From contig JAKOTZ010000262.1 in the NCBI GenBank assembly GCA_029776995.1, forward strand, positions 1 to 51,408: a stretch of 51,408 nucleotides of DNA, written 5' to 3'. The notes below the pieces were generated by a model. The model was not told the DNA's origin. It worked only from the letters and a program-made list of their open reading frames with translations, and ran no database searches. This document shows positions 20,673 to 30,382 of the stretch, in pieces. Origin of the DNA: Candidatus Hydrogenedentota bacterium. GTDB lineage: Bacteria > Hydrogenedentota > Hydrogenedentia > Hydrogenedentales > CAITNO01. The translations under genes and the position numbers were made by a program. The first letter of the stretch is position 1, and every line of letters begins with the position of its first letter.

Positions 20673-21502
20673 TGCCTGATTTTTCCGCGCGCGCAATATC
20701 TCCGGTAAAAGGTTTTACCCTGCTGGAACTGCTGATCGCGATTACCATCCTCGCCATCATTACGGGCATCGTGTATGCCGTGTTCTCATCGGTAACCGAA
20801 ACCATGGCGGCGGCCCGGGAAGACGCGGACCGGTTGCAGGTGCGGTTGGCGCTGCACCGGTATCTTGCCGCGGCGCTGGAAGGGATTTCCGCGGATTCCG
20901 CCTGCCTGGATGAGAGCCGGGCGTTCGAGGGAAAATCGGAGGACGGTCCAGCCGGCCCCGCGGATTCCCTGGTGTTTACGGCGGGGATCCCGGAGACCGG
21001 TCCCGGCGCGCTGCCCGGAATGATCAAGCTCATTTCCTTTGAGGTGGTATCCGATCAGGACGTCCCTCAGGACGCGCTGGTATACCAGGTGGACACGGAC
21101 CAGCCCTGCATGACCCTGCTGATTTCCGAGCAGCCGCTGGCTGCGTCCAGCGGACTGGAAGGCGCTATTTCCGGGACGGATCAGCTTCCCATAGTATCCC
21201 GCGCGATCCCCGTAACCCTGTTTGACGTGCTGTATTACGACGGCCTGTCGGATGAGTGGACAGAGGAATGGAATTCTCTTGATGAGGGACGCCTTCCCTG
21301 GGCCGTTTGGGTTCGGGCTAAACTGCCGGATCCCGTGGATGCCGCGTATCCCTCCAGCCCGGATGCGGCGGACGTGGATGTGATTGTTCCGGTGGCCCAG
21401 GGCATGGGTACGGAAGTGGGGTTCCTGGATTTCAATCGCATTATGCTGACGTCAGAGTTTGGGACAGACCAGCGTGATCGCGCCGGAAAAAAGAAGGAAT
21501 AA
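20672..21502 (+). CDS. gspJ: minor pseudopilin GspJ-like
   Basis: A 276-residue pseudopilin with KG/FTLLELLIAITILAIITG and then the GspJ-type YAVFSSVTETMAAAREDADR. The C-terminal domain is beta-rich with VTLFDVLYYDGLSDEWTEEW and LPWAVWVRAKL, as in GspJ. The start overlaps the gspI stop (TGATG). GspJ binds GspI and GspK at the tip of the pseudopilus. Confidence 0.85.
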   Translation: MPDFSARAISPVKGFTLLELLIAITILAIITGIVYAVFSSVTETMAAAREDADRLQVRLALHRYLAAALEGISADSACLDESRAFEGKSEDGPAGPADSLVFTAGIPETGPGALPGMIKLISFEVVSDQDVPQDALVYQVDTDQPCMTLLISEQPLAASSGLEGAISGTDQLPIVSRAIPVTLFDVLYYDGLSDEWTEEWNSLDEGRLPWAVWVRAKLPDPVDAAYPSSPDAADVDVIVPVAQGMGTEVGFLDFNRIMLTSEFGTDQRDRAGKKKE

Positions 21503-21509
21503 CCCGGAG

Positions 21510-22688
21510 GTGATAGCCCACACCAAAAACAGGATGGCTTCCGCCCGCGCGGGTGTTGCGCTTTTGGTGGCGCTGGTATTCGTGGCGTTGCTGTCGGCGC
21601 TGGTTTTCGGTTTTTTTTATGACATGGAGGTATCCGCGTCTTCGGCTTATGCCGTCGGTGACGACTTTCTGGCCTGGCTGGCGGCCCGGTCCGCGGTGGC
21701 CCAGGCAATGGGGCTCCTGGCCGACGACCTGGCCCAGGTGGAACAAAGCGGCATGCCCCCCTACGACAGCGAACTCGACACCTGGGCTGCGGGCATTCCG
21801 GCGACCGATCTGAATGAGGCGAAAATGCGCGCCTCCATATCCGACGAATACGGAAAAATCAACCTCAACGCGCTGTTTCTCAAACAGGGGGATCAGCTGG
21901 TCCGCAACGAGCGGCTCATCCAGGCGTTGCGCGATTTCTTCGCGTTGCGCACCGCCGGTGACCAGAAGGACCCCACGGACGCCATTCTGGACTGGCTGGA
22001 CTATGACGACATGGATGCCGAAGAGCCTGAAGGGGCGGAAAACAGCTATTACATGGGATTGCAGAACCCCTACCCCTGCAAAAACGGCCCCATGGATTCG
22101 ATTGAGGAGCTGCTGCTGATCAAAGGCATTACCCCGGAGCTCTATTTTGGGGATCCGGAACAGAACCAGTTGCCCCTCTCTGAGTACCTCACCGTTCACG
22201 GGGACTGGCGCGGACGGGTGAACGTGAACACCGCCCGGGAAGAGGTGATCGCCGCTGTGATCGGCGCCAGTACCGGAAACCAGGACCTGGGGCTGGCCCA
22301 GCAGATCTTTGACGAAGCCCGGATGAGCCCTTTTGAGGATCTCAGCCGCCTTGCCCAGTTTTTGCCACTCCCCGCGGAGCCGCCCGCGGCCCAGCGTCCC
22401 GCAAGGACTGCCGATGGTCGGCGGGTGGATCCAAGGGAATTGGAACGGCAGCGCCAGACCGCCCAGACGCAGCGGATGTTCCGGGTGGACAGTTACGTCT
22501 TCAGGATTCAGGGCGACGGCATGAAAGGCGATACGATCGTTCGAATTGAGGCTTATGTGTGGCGCACGCCGCTGGACCCCAGGGAACTGGAAGAATATGC
22601 CGCAAACTTCGGGTCGATTCTGGAGGGATCCGCGGAGCCGGTTCCCCCTGAGGCGTTCCGCGTGCTGGACTGGAGAATTATAAAATGA
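21510..22688 (+). CDS. gspK: minor pseudopilin GspK
   Basis: A 392-residue protein with the GspK-type N-terminus ARAG/VALLVALVFVALLSALVFG. It lacks the usual Glu at +5, which is normal for GspK. The large alpha domain shows the GspK features SISDEYGKINLNALF, AILDWLDYDDMDAEEPEGAE and the later helix-hairpin-helix-like VNVNTAREEVIAAVI. GTG at 21510 follows the gspJ stop with AAGGA upstream; ATG at 21534 is the other candidate. It caps the pseudopilus. Confidence 0.9.
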   Translation: MIAHTKNRMASARAGVALLVALVFVALLSALVFGFFYDMEVSASSAYAVGDDFLAWLAARSAVAQAMGLLADDLAQVEQSGMPPYDSELDTWAAGIPATDLNEAKMRASISDEYGKINLNALFLKQGDQLVRNERLIQALRDFFALRTAGDQKDPTDAILDWLDYDDMDAEEPEGAENSYYMGLQNPYPCKNGPMDSIEELLLIKGITPELYFGDPEQNQLPLSEYLTVHGDWRGRVNVNTAREEVIAAVIGASTGNQDLGLAQQIFDEARMSPFEDLSRLAQFLPLPAEPPAAQRPARTADGRRVDPRELERQRQTAQTQRMFRVDSYVFRIQGDGMKGDTIVRIEAYVWRTPLDPRELEEYAANFGSILEGSAEPVPPEAFRVLDWRIIK

Positions 22689-22771
22689 AGGCGGTCTCGC
22701 GAAAACGGTGGATGTCGGCAGTGACGGCCTTCCATATCCACCGGCAACGCTTCCGGTCAGATAAGGATTAA
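22685..22771 (+). CDS. possible 28-residue basic micro-ORF between gspK and gspL
   Basis: An ATG overlapping the gspK stop (ATGA) opens a frame that ends at TAA 22769-22771, five bases before the gspL ATG. The peptide starts MKAVSRKRWMS and ends RFRSDKD, with nine Arg/Lys. It contains the gspL ribosome site. It may be a real coupling ORF that carries ribosomes from gspK to gspL, or chance; no family is recognised. Confidence 0.3.
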   Translation: MKAVSRKRWMSAVTAFHIHRQRFRSDKD

Positions 22772-22775
22772 TAGC

Positions 22776-24230
22776 ATGGGTGTATATCTGTCAGTCGTAC
22801 GGACAGAAGGAGATGACATACGGCTGGCCGGTCTGCGTGTCGGCCGGGGGATGCCTTCTTTGGTGGAAGTTCTGGAAGGCAGGGCAGCGTATGAATCTCC
22901 CGAACAGCGGGATGAGGCCATCCGGAACGAAACGGAAAACCTGCTCAGCCGCATGAAAACCCGGCCGCTCGCGTTCGTGCTCTGCCTGCCGGCGCATCGG
23001 ATCATCAGCCGCCTGATCAAAGTGCCTTTTAAGGGACGGTCCCAGGTCAGCCAGGCCGTTCCAGTTGAGCTGGAGCCCCATCTGCCGTTTCCGGTAGACG
23101 AGTTGGCGCTGGATTTTACGGTAACCCGCGTGCTGGAGGACGAAACCGAAGTGCTCGCCTTCGGCATCCGGCAGAGCGCGCTGGACAACAGCCTGGCGCC
23201 TCTGATGGAACTTGACGCGCACCCTGAAGCCGCCGTTCCCGACACCTCCGGATTAACCGCGCTGTGGCTTGCCGCGCACAGGCGAACCCGGGAGCCCGCC
23301 GTGGTGGTGCACCTGTGTGAAACGTGCTGCGTGTTCACGTTTCTGCGCGACCGCAATATCTGCTTCACCCGGGCCATCCCCATAGCCGGTTCCGACGCGG
23401 CAGCAAATCCTGACGCTTTTACCCGGGAACTGCGGAATACCCTGCGCAACCTGGCCCTGACCCGGAAAGGGGATCCCGAACCGGACCGCCTGTACCTCAC
23501 GGGAATTCCGCAGGAGCATCCTGTTGTTGCCGCGCTGGAACAGCAGCTGGGACTGCCGGTGACGGCGGAAGTGATGCTTCATGCCGTTCGGGGTAGTCGA
23601 AGAATTCCCGCTGCAAACGAAGAAACGCTGTGGTTTAACCGGTGGGAACCCCTGATCGGCGCCGCGATGGCGGCAGCCGGCAGGGATGGTGCGGTCAATC
23701 TGATCCGAGGCGCCCAGGGCGGACGCGCGCTGGTCAGCGGTATCATCAGTCATGCCCTGTTTTCCGCGTGTCTGGGCCTGGTGGCGGTGATGCTCTGGGG
23801 ACTTTCCTATCACGTGGCGGTACGCCGCCTTGAAATGGAGCGGGCCCTGCTCGAGAGCCAGGCCGAGCAGGTGGACGCGGAAATTCTCCGCCTGGCGGAT
23901 GAAGGATTGGGAGAAGACGTTGACACTACCCCATTCTTTGATCCACCGCTGCTGGACGTGTTGAATGACCTGAGCGGACGTATTCCCCCGAAATCCGCCA
24001 CGATTGTCGAAGTCCGCGTGGCGCCGCCGGGGACGCCGGGCGCCTGGATTAGCGTGACCGGAGAAACCGGCAGCGCGTCCCAGTTCGACCAGATCATGGC
24101 ACGTCTGAAAGAAGCGTCCCTGTACAGGGTTTCTCCTGACGCCTCCGTCAAAATGCAGGGCGAACGGACCATTTTCCGGGTGCGGCTGTTCCGTCCCGGC
24201 GAGGAGATAGCCAGTAATGAACAATCTTGA
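22776..24230 (+). CDS. gspL: type II secretion protein GspL-like (PilM/PilN-type fold)
   Basis: A 484-residue protein. The N-terminal 310 residues form an actin-like (PilM/GspL) domain: FVLCLPAHRIISRLIKVPFK, QAVPVELEPHLPFPVDELAL, and AVVVHLCETCCVFTFLRDRN. A single membrane helix follows (HALFSACLGLVAVMLWGLSY), then a coiled coil and a small ferredoxin-like domain (LLDVLNDLSGRIPPKSATIV ... WISVTGETGSASQFDQIMAR), as in GspL and PilN. It connects GspE to the periplasmic part of the machine. ATG at 22776 has AAGGA eight bases upstream. Confidence 0.85.
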   Translation: MGVYLSVVRTEGDDIRLAGLRVGRGMPSLVEVLEGRAAYESPEQRDEAIRNETENLLSRMKTRPLAFVLCLPAHRIISRLIKVPFKGRSQVSQAVPVELEPHLPFPVDELALDFTVTRVLEDETEVLAFGIRQSALDNSLAPLMELDAHPEAAVPDTSGLTALWLAAHRRTREPAVVVHLCETCCVFTFLRDRNICFTRAIPIAGSDAAANPDAFTRELRNTLRNLALTRKGDPEPDRLYLTGIPQEHPVVAALEQQLGLPVTAEVMLHAVRGSRRIPAANEETLWFNRWEPLIGAAMAAAGRDGAVNLIRGAQGGRALVSGIISHALFSACLGLVAVMLWGLSYHVAVRRLEMERALLESQAEQVDAEILRLADEGLGEDVDTTPFFDPPLLDVLNDLSGRIPPKSATIVEVRVAPPGTPGAWISVTGETGSASQFDQIMARLKEASLYRVSPDASVKMQGERTIFRVRLFRPGEEIASNEQS

Positions 24231-24780
24231 TCAGCGAGACCGTATCGGACTGATGTTTGTCTTTTTTGTGGCGGTGCTGGTGCTGATGATGGCCGCTTAT
24301 ATTCCGCGGGGGCCCCGTCAGCGCTGGCTCAATTCGGAAAGCGCCCTGACGGCGTCGAGATCCGCCCTGCAGGAAAAATTGTTGCAGTACGCGGATCAGC
24401 AGGACCGCCTGGCCCGGCAGAAACAGCTGATGGAACTGCTGGAAAAACGGCCGTCCGATTTTTCCCTGTTCGCCCTGATGGACAACCTGCTCAATAAAAC
24501 CGGCCTGCGTTCCAAGGCCCAGTTGGAACAGTACCGCCCCAGGGGCGCGTCCGCCCGCCAACCCATGGTGCAGCTGCGCATGCAGGGTGTCGCGCTGTCA
24601 GAACTGGTCAGCCTCCTGCATGAAACGCTGAAGCGGGAAAATGTGGTAGCCGTGTACAAAGTGGACGCACTGAAGCCCGCGGTTACCGGAAAAGGGCTGG
24701 ACTGTGACATCACCTTTGCTACCGTAGTGCTGGAAAAGAATGGAGCTGAGGAACCCGCGGCGCCAGCGGCCGAGGGTTAA
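24217..24780 (+). CDS. gspM: type II secretion protein GspM-like
   Basis: A 187-residue bitopic protein. It has one N-terminal helix (IGLMFVFFVAVLVLMMAAYI), a coiled coil (ALTASRSALQEKLLQYADQQ) and a C-terminal ferredoxin-like domain (VQLRMQGVALSELVSLLHET), the layout of GspM/PilO. It overlaps gspL by 14 bases and is the last gene of the operon. It meets the HAD gene tail to tail with a four-base overlap, so no terminator fits between them. Confidence 0.82.
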   Translation: MNNLDQRDRIGLMFVFFVAVLVLMMAAYIPRGPRQRWLNSESALTASRSALQEKLLQYADQQDRLARQKQLMELLEKRPSDFSLFALMDNLLNKTGLRSKAQLEQYRPRGASARQPMVQLRMQGVALSELVSLLHETLKRENVVAVYKVDALKPAVTGKGLDCDITFATVVLEKNGAEEPAAPAAEG

Positions 24781-27680: not shown

Positions 27681-28760
27681 ATGAAAACCTATAAAATCGC
27701 ATTGCTTCCCGGTGACGGCACAGGTCCTGAAGTGCTGGACGAAGGCGTGAAGGTGGTTCAGGCGGCCGCCGAAAAATGCGGATTCAAACTGGAAACGCAA
27801 CTGTACGATTTCGGCGGTGAGCGGTACATGCGAACCGGTGAAGTGCTTCCAGACAGCGCTCCCGACGAATTGCGCCAATATGACGCGATTTACCTCGGCG
27901 CTATCGGCCACCCGGATGTCAAACCGGGGATCCTTGAAAAGGGAATCCTGCTCCGGTTGCGTTTTGAGCTGGATCAGTACATTAACCTTCGGCCCGTAAA
28001 ACTGTATCCGGGCGTGTGGACCCCCGTGAAGGATAAAGGTCCGGAAGACATTGATTTTGTCGTGGTCCGCGAAAATACCCAGGACCTGTACTGCGGCATG
28101 GGCGGACTTATGCATGAAGGCACGCCAAACGAAGTGGCAACCCAGGTGGCCATCTACTCCCGGTTCGGCGTGGACCGCTGCCTCCGGTACGCTTTTGAAT
28201 ACACCCGCAAGCGGAATAAGCGCAAAACCCTGACGCTGGTCGGAAAAACCAACGTGCTGACCTACGTTTACGGCCTTTGGGAACGGGCCTTCCACGAAAT
28301 GGGCGAACGGGATTACCCGGATATCAAGCGGGAGTATGCCCATGTGGACGCGACCACCATGTGGTTCGTGAAGAACCCGGAGTGGTTTGACGTGATCGTG
28401 ACCGGGAACATGTTTGGCGATATCATCACGGATCTGGGCGCGATGATCCAGGGCGGTATGGGGGTCGCGGCCGGCGGCAATATCAATCCGGAAGGGGTCT
28501 CCATGTTTGAACCGATCGGCGGCAGCGCGCCGAAATATACCGGCCAGAACGTGATTAACCCGTTGGCCTGCATTTTTGCCGGCCAGATGATGCTCGACCA
28601 TCTGGGTGAGACGGAAGCCGCCCGGATTGTCGAGGATGCCTGCGTGCGATTCCTGCAGTCCGGTGTGCTTCCCGGCCTTTCCGTGGTGGATATCAAAAAG
28701 GCGGGGCTTTCCACCACAAAAATTGGAGACATGATTGTCGAAAACGTGGCGTCGATGTAG
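27681..28760 (+). CDS. leuB: 3-isopropylmalate dehydrogenase-like enzyme
   Basis: A 359-residue beta-decarboxylating dehydrogenase (isocitrate/isopropylmalate family). It begins ALLPGDGTGPEV and has GAIGHPDVKPGILEKGILLR, then LRFELDQYINLRPVKLYPGV (substrate Arg residues), VVRENTQDLYCG, the Tyr/Lys region NVLTYVYGLW and the metal site DVIVTGNMFGDIITDLG, followed by FEPIGGSAPKYTG. This fits LeuB, but tartrate/malate dehydrogenases of the family share the pattern; no leuA, leuC or leuD is nearby, so the substrate is inferred. GGAG lies seven bases before ATG 27681. Confidence 0.82.
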   Translation: MKTYKIALLPGDGTGPEVLDEGVKVVQAAAEKCGFKLETQLYDFGGERYMRTGEVLPDSAPDELRQYDAIYLGAIGHPDVKPGILEKGILLRLRFELDQYINLRPVKLYPGVWTPVKDKGPEDIDFVVVRENTQDLYCGMGGLMHEGTPNEVATQVAIYSRFGVDRCLRYAFEYTRKRNKRKTLTLVGKTNVLTYVYGLWERAFHEMGERDYPDIKREYAHVDATTMWFVKNPEWFDVIVTGNMFGDIITDLGAMIQGGMGVAAGGNINPEGVSMFEPIGGSAPKYTGQNVINPLACIFAGQMMLDHLGETEAARIVEDACVRFLQSGVLPGLSVVDIKKAGLSTTKIGDMIVENVASM

Positions 28761-28851
28761 CGGATCGGCGTTTCCGGTGCCGTAATTAGCTCCCCTCGGC
28801 GAGGTCCCGGGTGTTTTTTAGAGAAACATTCCCAAAAACGAAAAATTTAAC

Positions 28852-28880
28852 TTGACTTTTGCGCTGGAATCAGGCATAAT
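28852..28880 (+). promoter_or_regulatory. strong consensus promoter of the glycine-rich secreted protein
   Basis: TTGACT (28852-28857), a 17-base spacer and CATAAT (28875-28880) make one of the best sigma-70-type promoters in the window. Transcription would start near 28887, giving a leader of about 60 bases. A run of six T at 28814-28819 just upstream may mark the end of the previous transcript. Confidence 0.75.
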
Positions 28881-28946
28881 TACCTTAGACAGCCCCAATG
28901 ACGGGCAGTGTAGGCAACAAAGAATTAAACACAGGAGACGGACGCC

Positions 28947-29168
28947 GTGAAAAAGACTGTATTTATCGTAGTGATGGCGCTTGTGATGGCCGTGGTTGCC
29001 GGTGTGGCAATGGCAGCGGATTCTCCTGCATCCACCCATACCCCCACCATCCGTGTGGCGGGCAGCACGGTCTCCGGCGGAGCGGGCGGTCTGGGCGGAG
29101 TCGCGGGCGGTCTTGCCGGTGGATCGACCGGTGGCAGTGGCGCAGATCTGAAAGTCGCCCAGTACTGA
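28947..29168 (+). CDS. small secreted glycine-rich protein
   Basis: 73 residues from GTG 28947 (AGGAG about nine bases upstream). A signal peptide is clear: MKKTVFIVVMALVMAVVAG, cleavage likely after AMA. The mature part of about 50 residues starts ADSPASTHTPTIRVAG, has a Gly/Ala core in short GG repeats (GGAGGLGGVAGGLAGG) and ends GADLKVAQY. There is no Cys. With a consensus promoter and a very strong terminator it is a single-gene unit, probably highly expressed. I recognise no family; structural surface protein, secreted peptide and bacteriocin-like roles are all open. Confidence 0.75.
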   Translation: MKKTVFIVVMALVMAVVAGVAMAADSPASTHTPTIRVAGSTVSGGAGGLGGVAGGLAGGSTGGSGADLKVAQY

Positions 29169-29193
29169 AACTGATCTGAAGAGATTAAGTGAA

Positions 29194-29231
29194 AAAAAGC
29201 TCTCACGTCAGTGATGACGGGGGAGCTTTTT
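29194..29231 (+). terminator. strong intrinsic terminator after the glycine-rich protein
   Basis: An 11-base-pair outer stem (AAAAAGCTCTC with GGGAGCTTTTT) continues after one mismatch into CGTCA/TGACG closed by a GTGA tetraloop. The 3' side runs into TTTTTATTTT. The A-run on the left could let it work on both strands, which would also serve the converging glpQ-like gene. Confidence 0.85.
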
Positions 29232-29395
29232 ATTTTGGGATCAATATTTACTTGCCGGACTGGTGAAAAAAGAATTTCAGCTATTCCCCCTGATCTTTCT
29301 GATCTGGGATATTTGACGCAATCCCGAGGAGAGATGAAAGGGCAGGGGGATAAAATGGTGTAGAGAAGTCCTGGCAGATGCAGATAAGATTGATG

Positions 29396-30382
29396 TTAAC
29401 GGTTAAAGACGGACTGCCGGACCTTTATTGCGGTACCGGTAAAATCGGTAAATAGTCCGTCAACGCCATATTCCTGGTAAAATTTTTCCAGCTCCGCCGT
29501 GATATCCGCGTAACCTGACCCCACCTGATCGTCCCGAAACGTATAGGGATGCACTTTAAGCCCCAGCGCGTGAGCACGACTGACCAACGATGGATCCTTG
29601 TCCACCAGTGTTTTGTCGGGACCAATCGCCTGGGCAATTTCCGCGATAGCCTGCAGCCCTTTGTCGGTCAGCATGCCCCGCTGCATGGGATGGTCGGAAA
29701 TCAGCTGTACCATCGGCAACGCGCAACCCAGTTCTTTGCGGAGGCGGCGCAGCGCGTCAGGATCAAAACATTGAATGTAAACGGGACAATTTTTCTCTCC
29801 GACCTTAAGGCTTTGTGCCAGGGCAAGAAAGTCTGCCTCCATCGGCTTTCCTTCCTTCCGGTGGAATGCGGGATCTTTAAGTTCGGGATATACGCCCACT
29901 TTCCGCCCGGTTGACCGGTTCAACCCCTGAACCAGTTGTACCACTTCTTCAAATGTGGGGATGGTCAAAATTTCAATTTCCTGAGGGAACCGGTTGGAGA
30001 GCCGTTCCCGGGCGCGCAGCTGGCGGATTTCATCCAAAGTAAAATCGATGGCGTACCAGCGCCCGTCAGCGCGTTTTCGGTCGGGAAACCATTTGGCCAC
30101 ATCCGTTGTGTCTTCCAGGTGGATATCGTGCCGGCAGATGAATGCGCCATCCCGGGTACGCACCAGGTCCGGTTCAATATAATCCGCGCCCATGCCGTAT
30201 GCCATGGCATACGCTGCCAGGGTATGCTCGGGCAGGTACCCGCTCGCTCCCCGGTGCGCGATGATCACCGGCGGGGTTTCCAGCGGCTGTTCCGGCCTGG
30301 CTGATTCGCTCCAGCCAAGCATAACCAGGGCGGGGAGTACCAGGATTAACGGGTTTACCAGGCGTACACTCGACGTTTTCAT
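29396..30382 (-). CDS. glpQ: secreted glycerophosphodiester phosphodiesterase
   Basis: A 328-residue GDPD-family enzyme that cleaves glycerophosphodiesters to glycerol-3-phosphate and an alcohol. It has a signal peptide (LVNPLILVLPALVMLG), the catalytic pattern AHRGASGYLPEHTLAAY and EPDLVRTRDG, the HD pair in CRHDIHLEDTTD, and the late Lys/Trp-region VGVYPELKDPAF. The length fits periplasmic GlpQ. ATG 30382 overlaps the stop of the NYN gene (ATGA), so it belongs to the pgsA-alr-NYN operon and could recycle phospholipid head groups. Confidence 0.93.
   Translation of the reverse strand: MKTSSVRLVNPLILVLPALVMLGWSESARPEQPLETPPVIIAHRGASGYLPEHTLAAYAMAYGMGADYIEPDLVRTRDGAFICRHDIHLEDTTDVAKWFPDRKRADGRWYAIDFTLDEIRQLRARERLSNRFPQEIEILTIPTFEEVVQLVQGLNRSTGRKVGVYPELKDPAFHRKEGKPMEADFLALAQSLKVGEKNCPVYIQCFDPDALRRLRKELGCALPMVQLISDHPMQRGMLTDKGLQAIAEIAQAIGPDKTLVDKDPSLVSRAHALGLKVHPYTFRDDQVGSGYADITAELEKFYQEYGVDGLFTDFTGTAIKVRQSVFNR

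Follow-up and report, generated by a model that had tools for sequence, protein, structure and literature searches.

A gene of the window (the whole stretch of 51,408 nucleotides that was analyzed) was found to belong to a family of 19 genes, itself included, which occur in 18 of the 68 phylum genomes searched and are spread over four taxonomic families. The gene is a self-contained, monocistronic-looking unit for a small Gly-rich peptide that is probably exported. Short Gly-rich low-complexity genes are easily overlooked; here an orphan open reading frame could be placed in a defined protein family whose tail is strikingly constant, and two of the four taxonomic families have a candidate modifying enzyme encoded next door.

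The gene and its product

The unit consists of the following features, all on the + strand:

28852..28880, +, sigma-70-like promoter, TTGACT-17-CATAAT, 10/12 matches to consensus
28881..28946, +, untranslated leader, including the ribosome site AGGAGA (28933-28938); no strong fold, z -1.6
28947..29168, +, gene for a 73-aa Gly-rich, putatively secreted protein; GTG start, TGA stop
28947..29015, +, signal peptide, residues 1-23, MKKTVFIVVMALVMAVVAGVAMA; AxA cleavage site, read by eye
29016..29075, +, variable mature N-terminal segment, residues 24-43; Ser/Thr-rich, unconserved and length-variable columns in alignment A2
29076..29138, +, Gly-rich segment, residues 44-64, GGAGGLGGVAGGLAGGSTGGS; from alignment A2
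29139..29165, +, conserved C-terminal tail GADLKVAQY, residues 65-73; directly 5' of the stop codon
29194..29231, +, rho-independent terminator; 16 pairs, one A/G mismatch, loop GUGA (GTGA in DNA)

The -35 box TTGACT (28852-28857) and the -10 box CATAAT (28875-28880) are separated by 17 bases, and AGGAGA lies 8 bases before the GTG at 28947. These elements, the signal peptide and the 16-pair terminator with its GTGA loop had all been described in a first-pass annotation of this DNA and were recovered here. Cleavage at the point read by eye would give a mature peptide starting with ADSPAST..., and the two Ala residues of the AxA site are nearly invariant (A21) and invariant (A23) in alignment A2. 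The mature part contains no Cys, as had been stated before. Ser and Thr account for 93 of 326 residues in its variable segment, measured in the 12 rows that were left after rows of the same name had been collapsed.

In the AlphaFold2 model (pLDDT 53) the signal helix, residues 2-22, is the only helix, and the Gly-rich segment is modeled with low confidence as neither helix nor strand. With 15 similar sequences as input, the low pLDDT is weak evidence that the peptide is disordered. Gly is encoded by GGT or GGC at 12 of 15 codons in the window gene and at 270 of 305 codons over 18 units, compared with 118 of 197 in eight window genes, a background taken from this genome only. This codon choice is compatible with high expression.

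On one side the unit is flanked by an isocitrate/isopropylmalate dehydrogenase gene (Iso_dh, E 2e-92) and on the other side by a convergent glycerophosphodiester phosphodiesterase gene (GDPD, E 4.9e-51). The terminator has a folding energy of -21.9 kcal/mol on the + strand (z -6.5 compared to shuffles) and of -16.5 kcal/mol on the - strand. Because it is nearly symmetric, with an A-run on the 5' side in addition to the T-run, and folds on both strands, it may serve the converging GDPD gene as well.

Promoter and terminator in the homologous units

Taken alone, the window promoter is within chance expectation, with 2 sites in a 1.5-kb region compared to a mean of 1.0 in shuffles. It is convincing because a promoter-like site (at least 9/12 matches, at most 150 bases upstream) was found in 18/18 full-length units, whereas 2.96 were expected from 200 dinucleotide shuffles per unit. 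In 17 units the best site of the scan has a spacing of 17 bases; in the 18th, that of genome G039, the best scanned site has a 16-base spacer and the aligned 17-base site was picked by eye. The units of family f7 are AT-rich and gave shuffle rates of 0.35-0.57, therefore their promoters are weak evidence.

A terminator was called in 13 of the 18 units compared to 1.07 expected; the uncalled ones are those of G013, G005, G039, G034, and G029, the last three belonging to f7. The terminator of the window was absent from the list of one scanner and was called by the script that was applied to all 18 units. A promoter and a terminator of its own are thus a feature of the family, and the compact unit for a secreted Gly-rich peptide that had been proposed from the window appears to be kept as such across its homologs.

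The 3' part of the leader is near-identical in G001. When nine leaders were aligned, the promoter was kept and similarity in the leader was merely patchy; no conserved RNA leader structure is claimed from this alignment. An Rfam search over 28700-29450 yielded four matches, each under its gathering score.

Conservation and selection on the mature peptide

All members carry a signal peptide, a Gly-rich segment and a tail GAD(V/L/I)x..Y located at, or one residue before, the stop codon. The C-terminal half of the mature peptide, GGAGGxGGxAGG...GGAD(V/L/I)xVAxY, is the most conserved part, with conservation being strongest over the last ~30 residues. Alignment A2 has 18 rows; the 19th gene, that of G031, falls on the ends of two contigs and was kept outside it. 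Columns A23, A46, G47, G50, G51, A53, G65, A66, D67, and Y73 are invariant, and A21, G45, G48, G54, G58, G59, G64, V70, and A71 nearly so. In 16 of the 19 genes the terminal Tyr stands directly at the stop codon, while the three f7 genes add one residue, H or N. The tail is also specific at the DNA level: a degenerate pattern for it had 14 sites in 13 of 68 genomes, all of which are this gene, and its reversed control had 0. A variant pattern for the f10 tail matched in 2 of 68 genomes, both times in this gene.

Selection was measured in the three close pairs G000/G001, G013/G016, and G034/G029. The pN/pS of the mature part (from codon 25) was 0.12, 0.07, and 0.11, respectively, that of the last 31 residues 0.10, 0, and 0.05, and that of the first 24 codons 0.22, 0, and 0.19. 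These values rest on small counts (the mature part shows 1 to 6 nonsynonymous differences) and point in the same direction in all three pairs. The mature peptide is under purifying selection in these pairs. Conservation therefore extends past the signal peptide, which contradicts the lack of conservation there that the first-pass annotation had named as grounds for refutation. That the tail hardly changes over the four families speaks for a conserved partner.

Distribution in the phylum

In a first search of 100 genomes, clear homologs of the gene (E 2e-5 or better) turned up within its own genus (84% identity), elsewhere in its family and in a second family, and weak matches at E 0.01-1 were plentiful. 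The gene is single in its own genome, where it gave the self match and one match at E 0.95. A profile of 15 rows identified 18 of the 68 phylum genomes at E <= 0.01, from which the match in G060 was rejected as it lies inside a 574-aa frame. A second profile, used on 386 genomes overall with at most 14 candidates scored per genome, added G031, in which two contig ends interrupt the gene, so that its pieces were read separately; a match in G022 was dropped since it lies within a long frame, and so were second weak matches in G001 and G007.

By family, the gene is present in 12/17 genomes of f1, 3/4 of f7, 1/2 of f3 (in two copies) and 2/3 of f10. It was not found in 50 of the 68 phylum genomes, with 0/42 in the remaining families including 0/25 in f5, and therefore it is not a universal envelope component. 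Five apparently gene-less genomes were checked via their neighboring genes. In G009, G012, and G022 the contig ends before the expected site, while in G004 and G015 it continues for more than 1 kb without the gene at the expected place. Contig ends inside the gene or beside the expected site were recorded at L081 1-260 and L082 1-84 (G031), at the end of L102 (G022) and at the starts of L106 (G012) and L110 (G009); such breaks could come from repeats, strain variation or hard-to-sequence Gly-rich DNA. The two copies of G018 (L052 8260-8559 and L053 7774-8064) have a longer variable segment and the tail ADVLVAQY, and a separate promoter-like site and terminator accompany each copy.

Weak matches (E 8e-4 to 0.1) in 20 genomes outside the phylum were excluded from the count. 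The matched frame of G355, the best of them (E 8e-4), has neither signal peptide nor tail and was rejected; inspection outside the phylum covered this frame and, at the G352 locus, the Gly-rich frames. No plasmid or phage record matched at E 0.1. A named genome collection (two scans) and viral contigs (one scan) contained pattern matches, none of which was confirmed by tblastn, where a low-complexity filter is suspected to be the cause; the exact tail pattern had 0 matches in the viral contigs.

Comparison with known families

The family was found in none of the curated libraries, and no convincing match was obtained for the window protein. Pfam was run on the window protein (E up to 10) and on 15 members (E up to 1), NCBIfam and PHROGs on the window protein; what these libraries and the solved structures returned were matches to the signal peptide or matches of composition. 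The earlier statement that the protein has no known domain holds, as DUF5826 at E 0.14, below cut-off, is the sole Pfam entry listed for it. GRP (PF07172) and New_glue (PF21827), which we take to be eukaryotic families, likewise have a signal peptide followed by a Gly-rich segment. PF07172 matches 2 of the 15 members (best E 1.3e-5) and PF21827 matches 4 of the 15 (best E 0.0035), but neither matches the window protein at E 10, and these matches are taken as composition. Residues 1-28 of the window protein weakly match ExtJ (NCBIfam NF040942, E 0.003); however, the signal peptide alone is matched and the score of 17.9 compares to a cut-off of 52.5.

Several protein types were considered and rejected. 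A profile search against the PDB gave a best E of 0.024, judged to be composition only. RTX calcium-binding repeats are tandem GGxGxDxUx units, and a single GGxGxD-like stretch precedes the tail in most f1 rows; it is missing from f7 and G025 and is never repeated. No mature-part Cys occurs in 18/18 rows, and the h-region Cys of some rows is not part of a lipobox (by eye), which speaks against a lipoprotein. PEP-CTERM, GlyGly-CTERM and LPXTG proteins end in a transmembrane helix followed by basic residues, whereas the tail here consists of 9 polar or mixed residues ending at the stop, and no such NCBIfam match was obtained for the window protein. Glycine-zipper families of Pfam were listed neither for the window protein (E up to 10) nor for the 15 members (E up to 1). 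Searches of the literature by tail sequence, or by the assumed phylum name together with 'glycine-rich', returned nothing on the family, and the titles and abstract openings of other papers name nothing similar.

In layout the peptide resembles the single-stranded-DNA-binding protein, in which a flexible Gly-rich linker is followed by a conserved C-terminal docking tip. Here as well, a Gly-rich linker precedes a short, nearly invariant C-terminal motif. In contrast to that protein, no folded domain was found in the peptide, it is predicted to be exported and its tail is different, so the likeness is one of analogy and not of kinship.

A glycosyltransferase neighbor in two families

When 18 regions were compared, separate contexts were found for {G000, G001}, {G003, G008, G016}, {G006, G011}, {G005, G010}, and {G029, G034, G039}; G007 and G014 share no context and G013 is on a short contig. 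The context thus mostly differs between genera, with one exception that spans f3 and f10. In 4/4 loci of these two families (G018 twice, G025, and G031) the divergent upstream neighbor encodes a PMT_2 domain followed by TPR repeats:

L053 4909-7395, PMT_2-TPR neighbor
L052 6245-8046, PMT_2-TPR neighbor
L054 8117-13205, PMT_2-TPR neighbor
L081 from about 418, PMT_2-TPR neighbor

At the first copy of G018 this neighbor is in pieces in separate frames. The neighbor in G031 was assigned by its 63% similarity to the G018 protein, without a Pfam scan; it was inspected after the other three loci were known, and agreed with them. Since each of the ten genomes searched, that of the window included, has 5 to 9 matches to PMT_2-TPR genes (partial ones included), four of four by chance is unlikely. 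The four loci may share one ancestral arrangement, and the neighbor is a candidate for either a modifying enzyme or an inherited arrangement. Neither the window nor any of the 14 f1/f7 regions examined (4.8 to 18 kb each) has a PMT gene near the unit; in G007 a PMT_2-TPR match lies on the same contig, about 12 kb off.

Possible functions

The reading that we tentatively prefer, and hold with less than even confidence, is that of a small structural peptide of the envelope or matrix, which would be abundant, Sec-exported and flexible and would carry a docking tail. The self-contained gene would probably be transcribed abundantly, and its product would be exported via Sec and cut by signal peptidase I after AMA, leaving ~50 residues. 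The Ser/Thr-rich mature start is perhaps O-glycosylated at the membrane's outer face. The Gly-rich stretch would be a flexible spacer, and the tail GAD(V/L/I)xVAxY, which resembles a short beta-strand, would dock on an envelope or matrix partner that is itself conserved. The first-pass annotation had offered surface, adhesive or antagonistic peptides as typical products of such units; a surface or adhesive role is possible, and overall its interpretation is partly supported. If the peptide is abundant, it would make a good candidate component of the envelope or matrix, and its gene could be a useful metatranscriptome marker.

A secreted glycopeptide is possible in view of the Ser/Thr-rich variable segment and of the PMT-TPR gene next to the unit in f3 and f10. 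As a more specific, and rather unlikely, version, the protein may be a minimal acceptor peptide that is secreted and forms a pair with a PMT-type (dolichyl-phosphate-mannose type) glycosyltransferase. Its Ser/Thr start would be O-glycosylated during export, the Gly-rich part would act as spacer and the invariant GGAD(V/L/I)xVAxY tail would be a previously undescribed tag, anchoring or cross-linking the glycopeptide to a conserved envelope partner.

The constancy of the tail across four families also argues against both a species-private signal and an arms-race toxin. A small exported precursor with a conserved C-terminus at the stop and a dedicated promoter could be the source of an extracellular signal, with a protease freeing a C-terminal xVAxY peptide after export that is then sensed by the producer. 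Such signals usually diverge between species, unlike this tail, and no receptor or protease gene was recognized among the identified shared neighbors, which are partly annotated; we regard this role as a minor possibility. A Sec-exported, microcin-like antagonist appears improbable. Class II microcins are small, Gly/Ala-rich and exported, and the window peptide resembles them in being small, Gly/Ala-rich and predicted to be exported. One of 15 members weakly matches the putative-bacteriocin Pfam family YxzE (E 0.013), and AcrB-type pump genes, with 26-32% identity between families, lie within about 4 kb in G006, G011, and G025. However, class II microcins have a double-glycine leader and the window peptide a Sec-type signal peptide, and NCBIfam and PHROGs gave no bacteriocin family for the window protein. 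No immunity gene was recognized nearby (the neighbors are partly annotated), and most contexts differ between genera. The antagonistic role proposed earlier is further disfavored by the mature charge, which ranges from +1 to about -7 across members, and by the uniformity of the C-terminal half across species and families.

The position of the tail directly before the stop codon, with Tyr as the last residue in most of the genes, could likewise mean that the tail is recognized as a free C-terminus, in the manner of PDZ domains, by an envelope protease or a quality-control sensor; the peptide would then be a stress reporter and not structural. Given the H or N that follows Tyr in f7, which a strict C-terminal ligand would not tolerate, the chance of this is judged to be slim. 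That the frame is a functionless chance Gly-rich ORF is very improbable. Gly-rich low-complexity sequence is easily matched by chance, and matches at E 0.01-1 are indeed abundant, but purifying selection in three pairs, a tail pattern with zero control matches and a promoter-like site in each full-length unit all speak against it.

Other neighbors and the promoter pattern elsewhere

A PilM-like gene (E 1.8e-6) is located at 22776-24230 of the window, with linked genes within 21459-24780. A PilM-like gene with two linked genes occurs at a distance of 4 to 6 kb both in G000 and in G011 (~6 kb in the latter, which belongs to a different genus), and a DUF1559 gene is near the unit in both G011 and G018. 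The sharing of PilM-like, AcrB-type and DUF1559 genes was given little weight, because these are common families or lie kilobases away. In 3/3 f7 genomes the gene is directly upstream of tRNA-Pro(CGG) (L013 1351-1429, L014 1348-1426, and L015 1779-1857).

The promoter pattern, allowing at most 1 mismatch, had 3, 4, 4, and 4 matches in G000, G001, G003, and G011, respectively, compared to 0, 0, 3, and 0 for the reversed control. No shared regulon is claimed, as 4 of these 15 matches are the unit itself and 10 of the other 11 precede unrelated or no clear genes. An exact match in G001 (locus L088, G001:C12) precedes a pilin-like gene.
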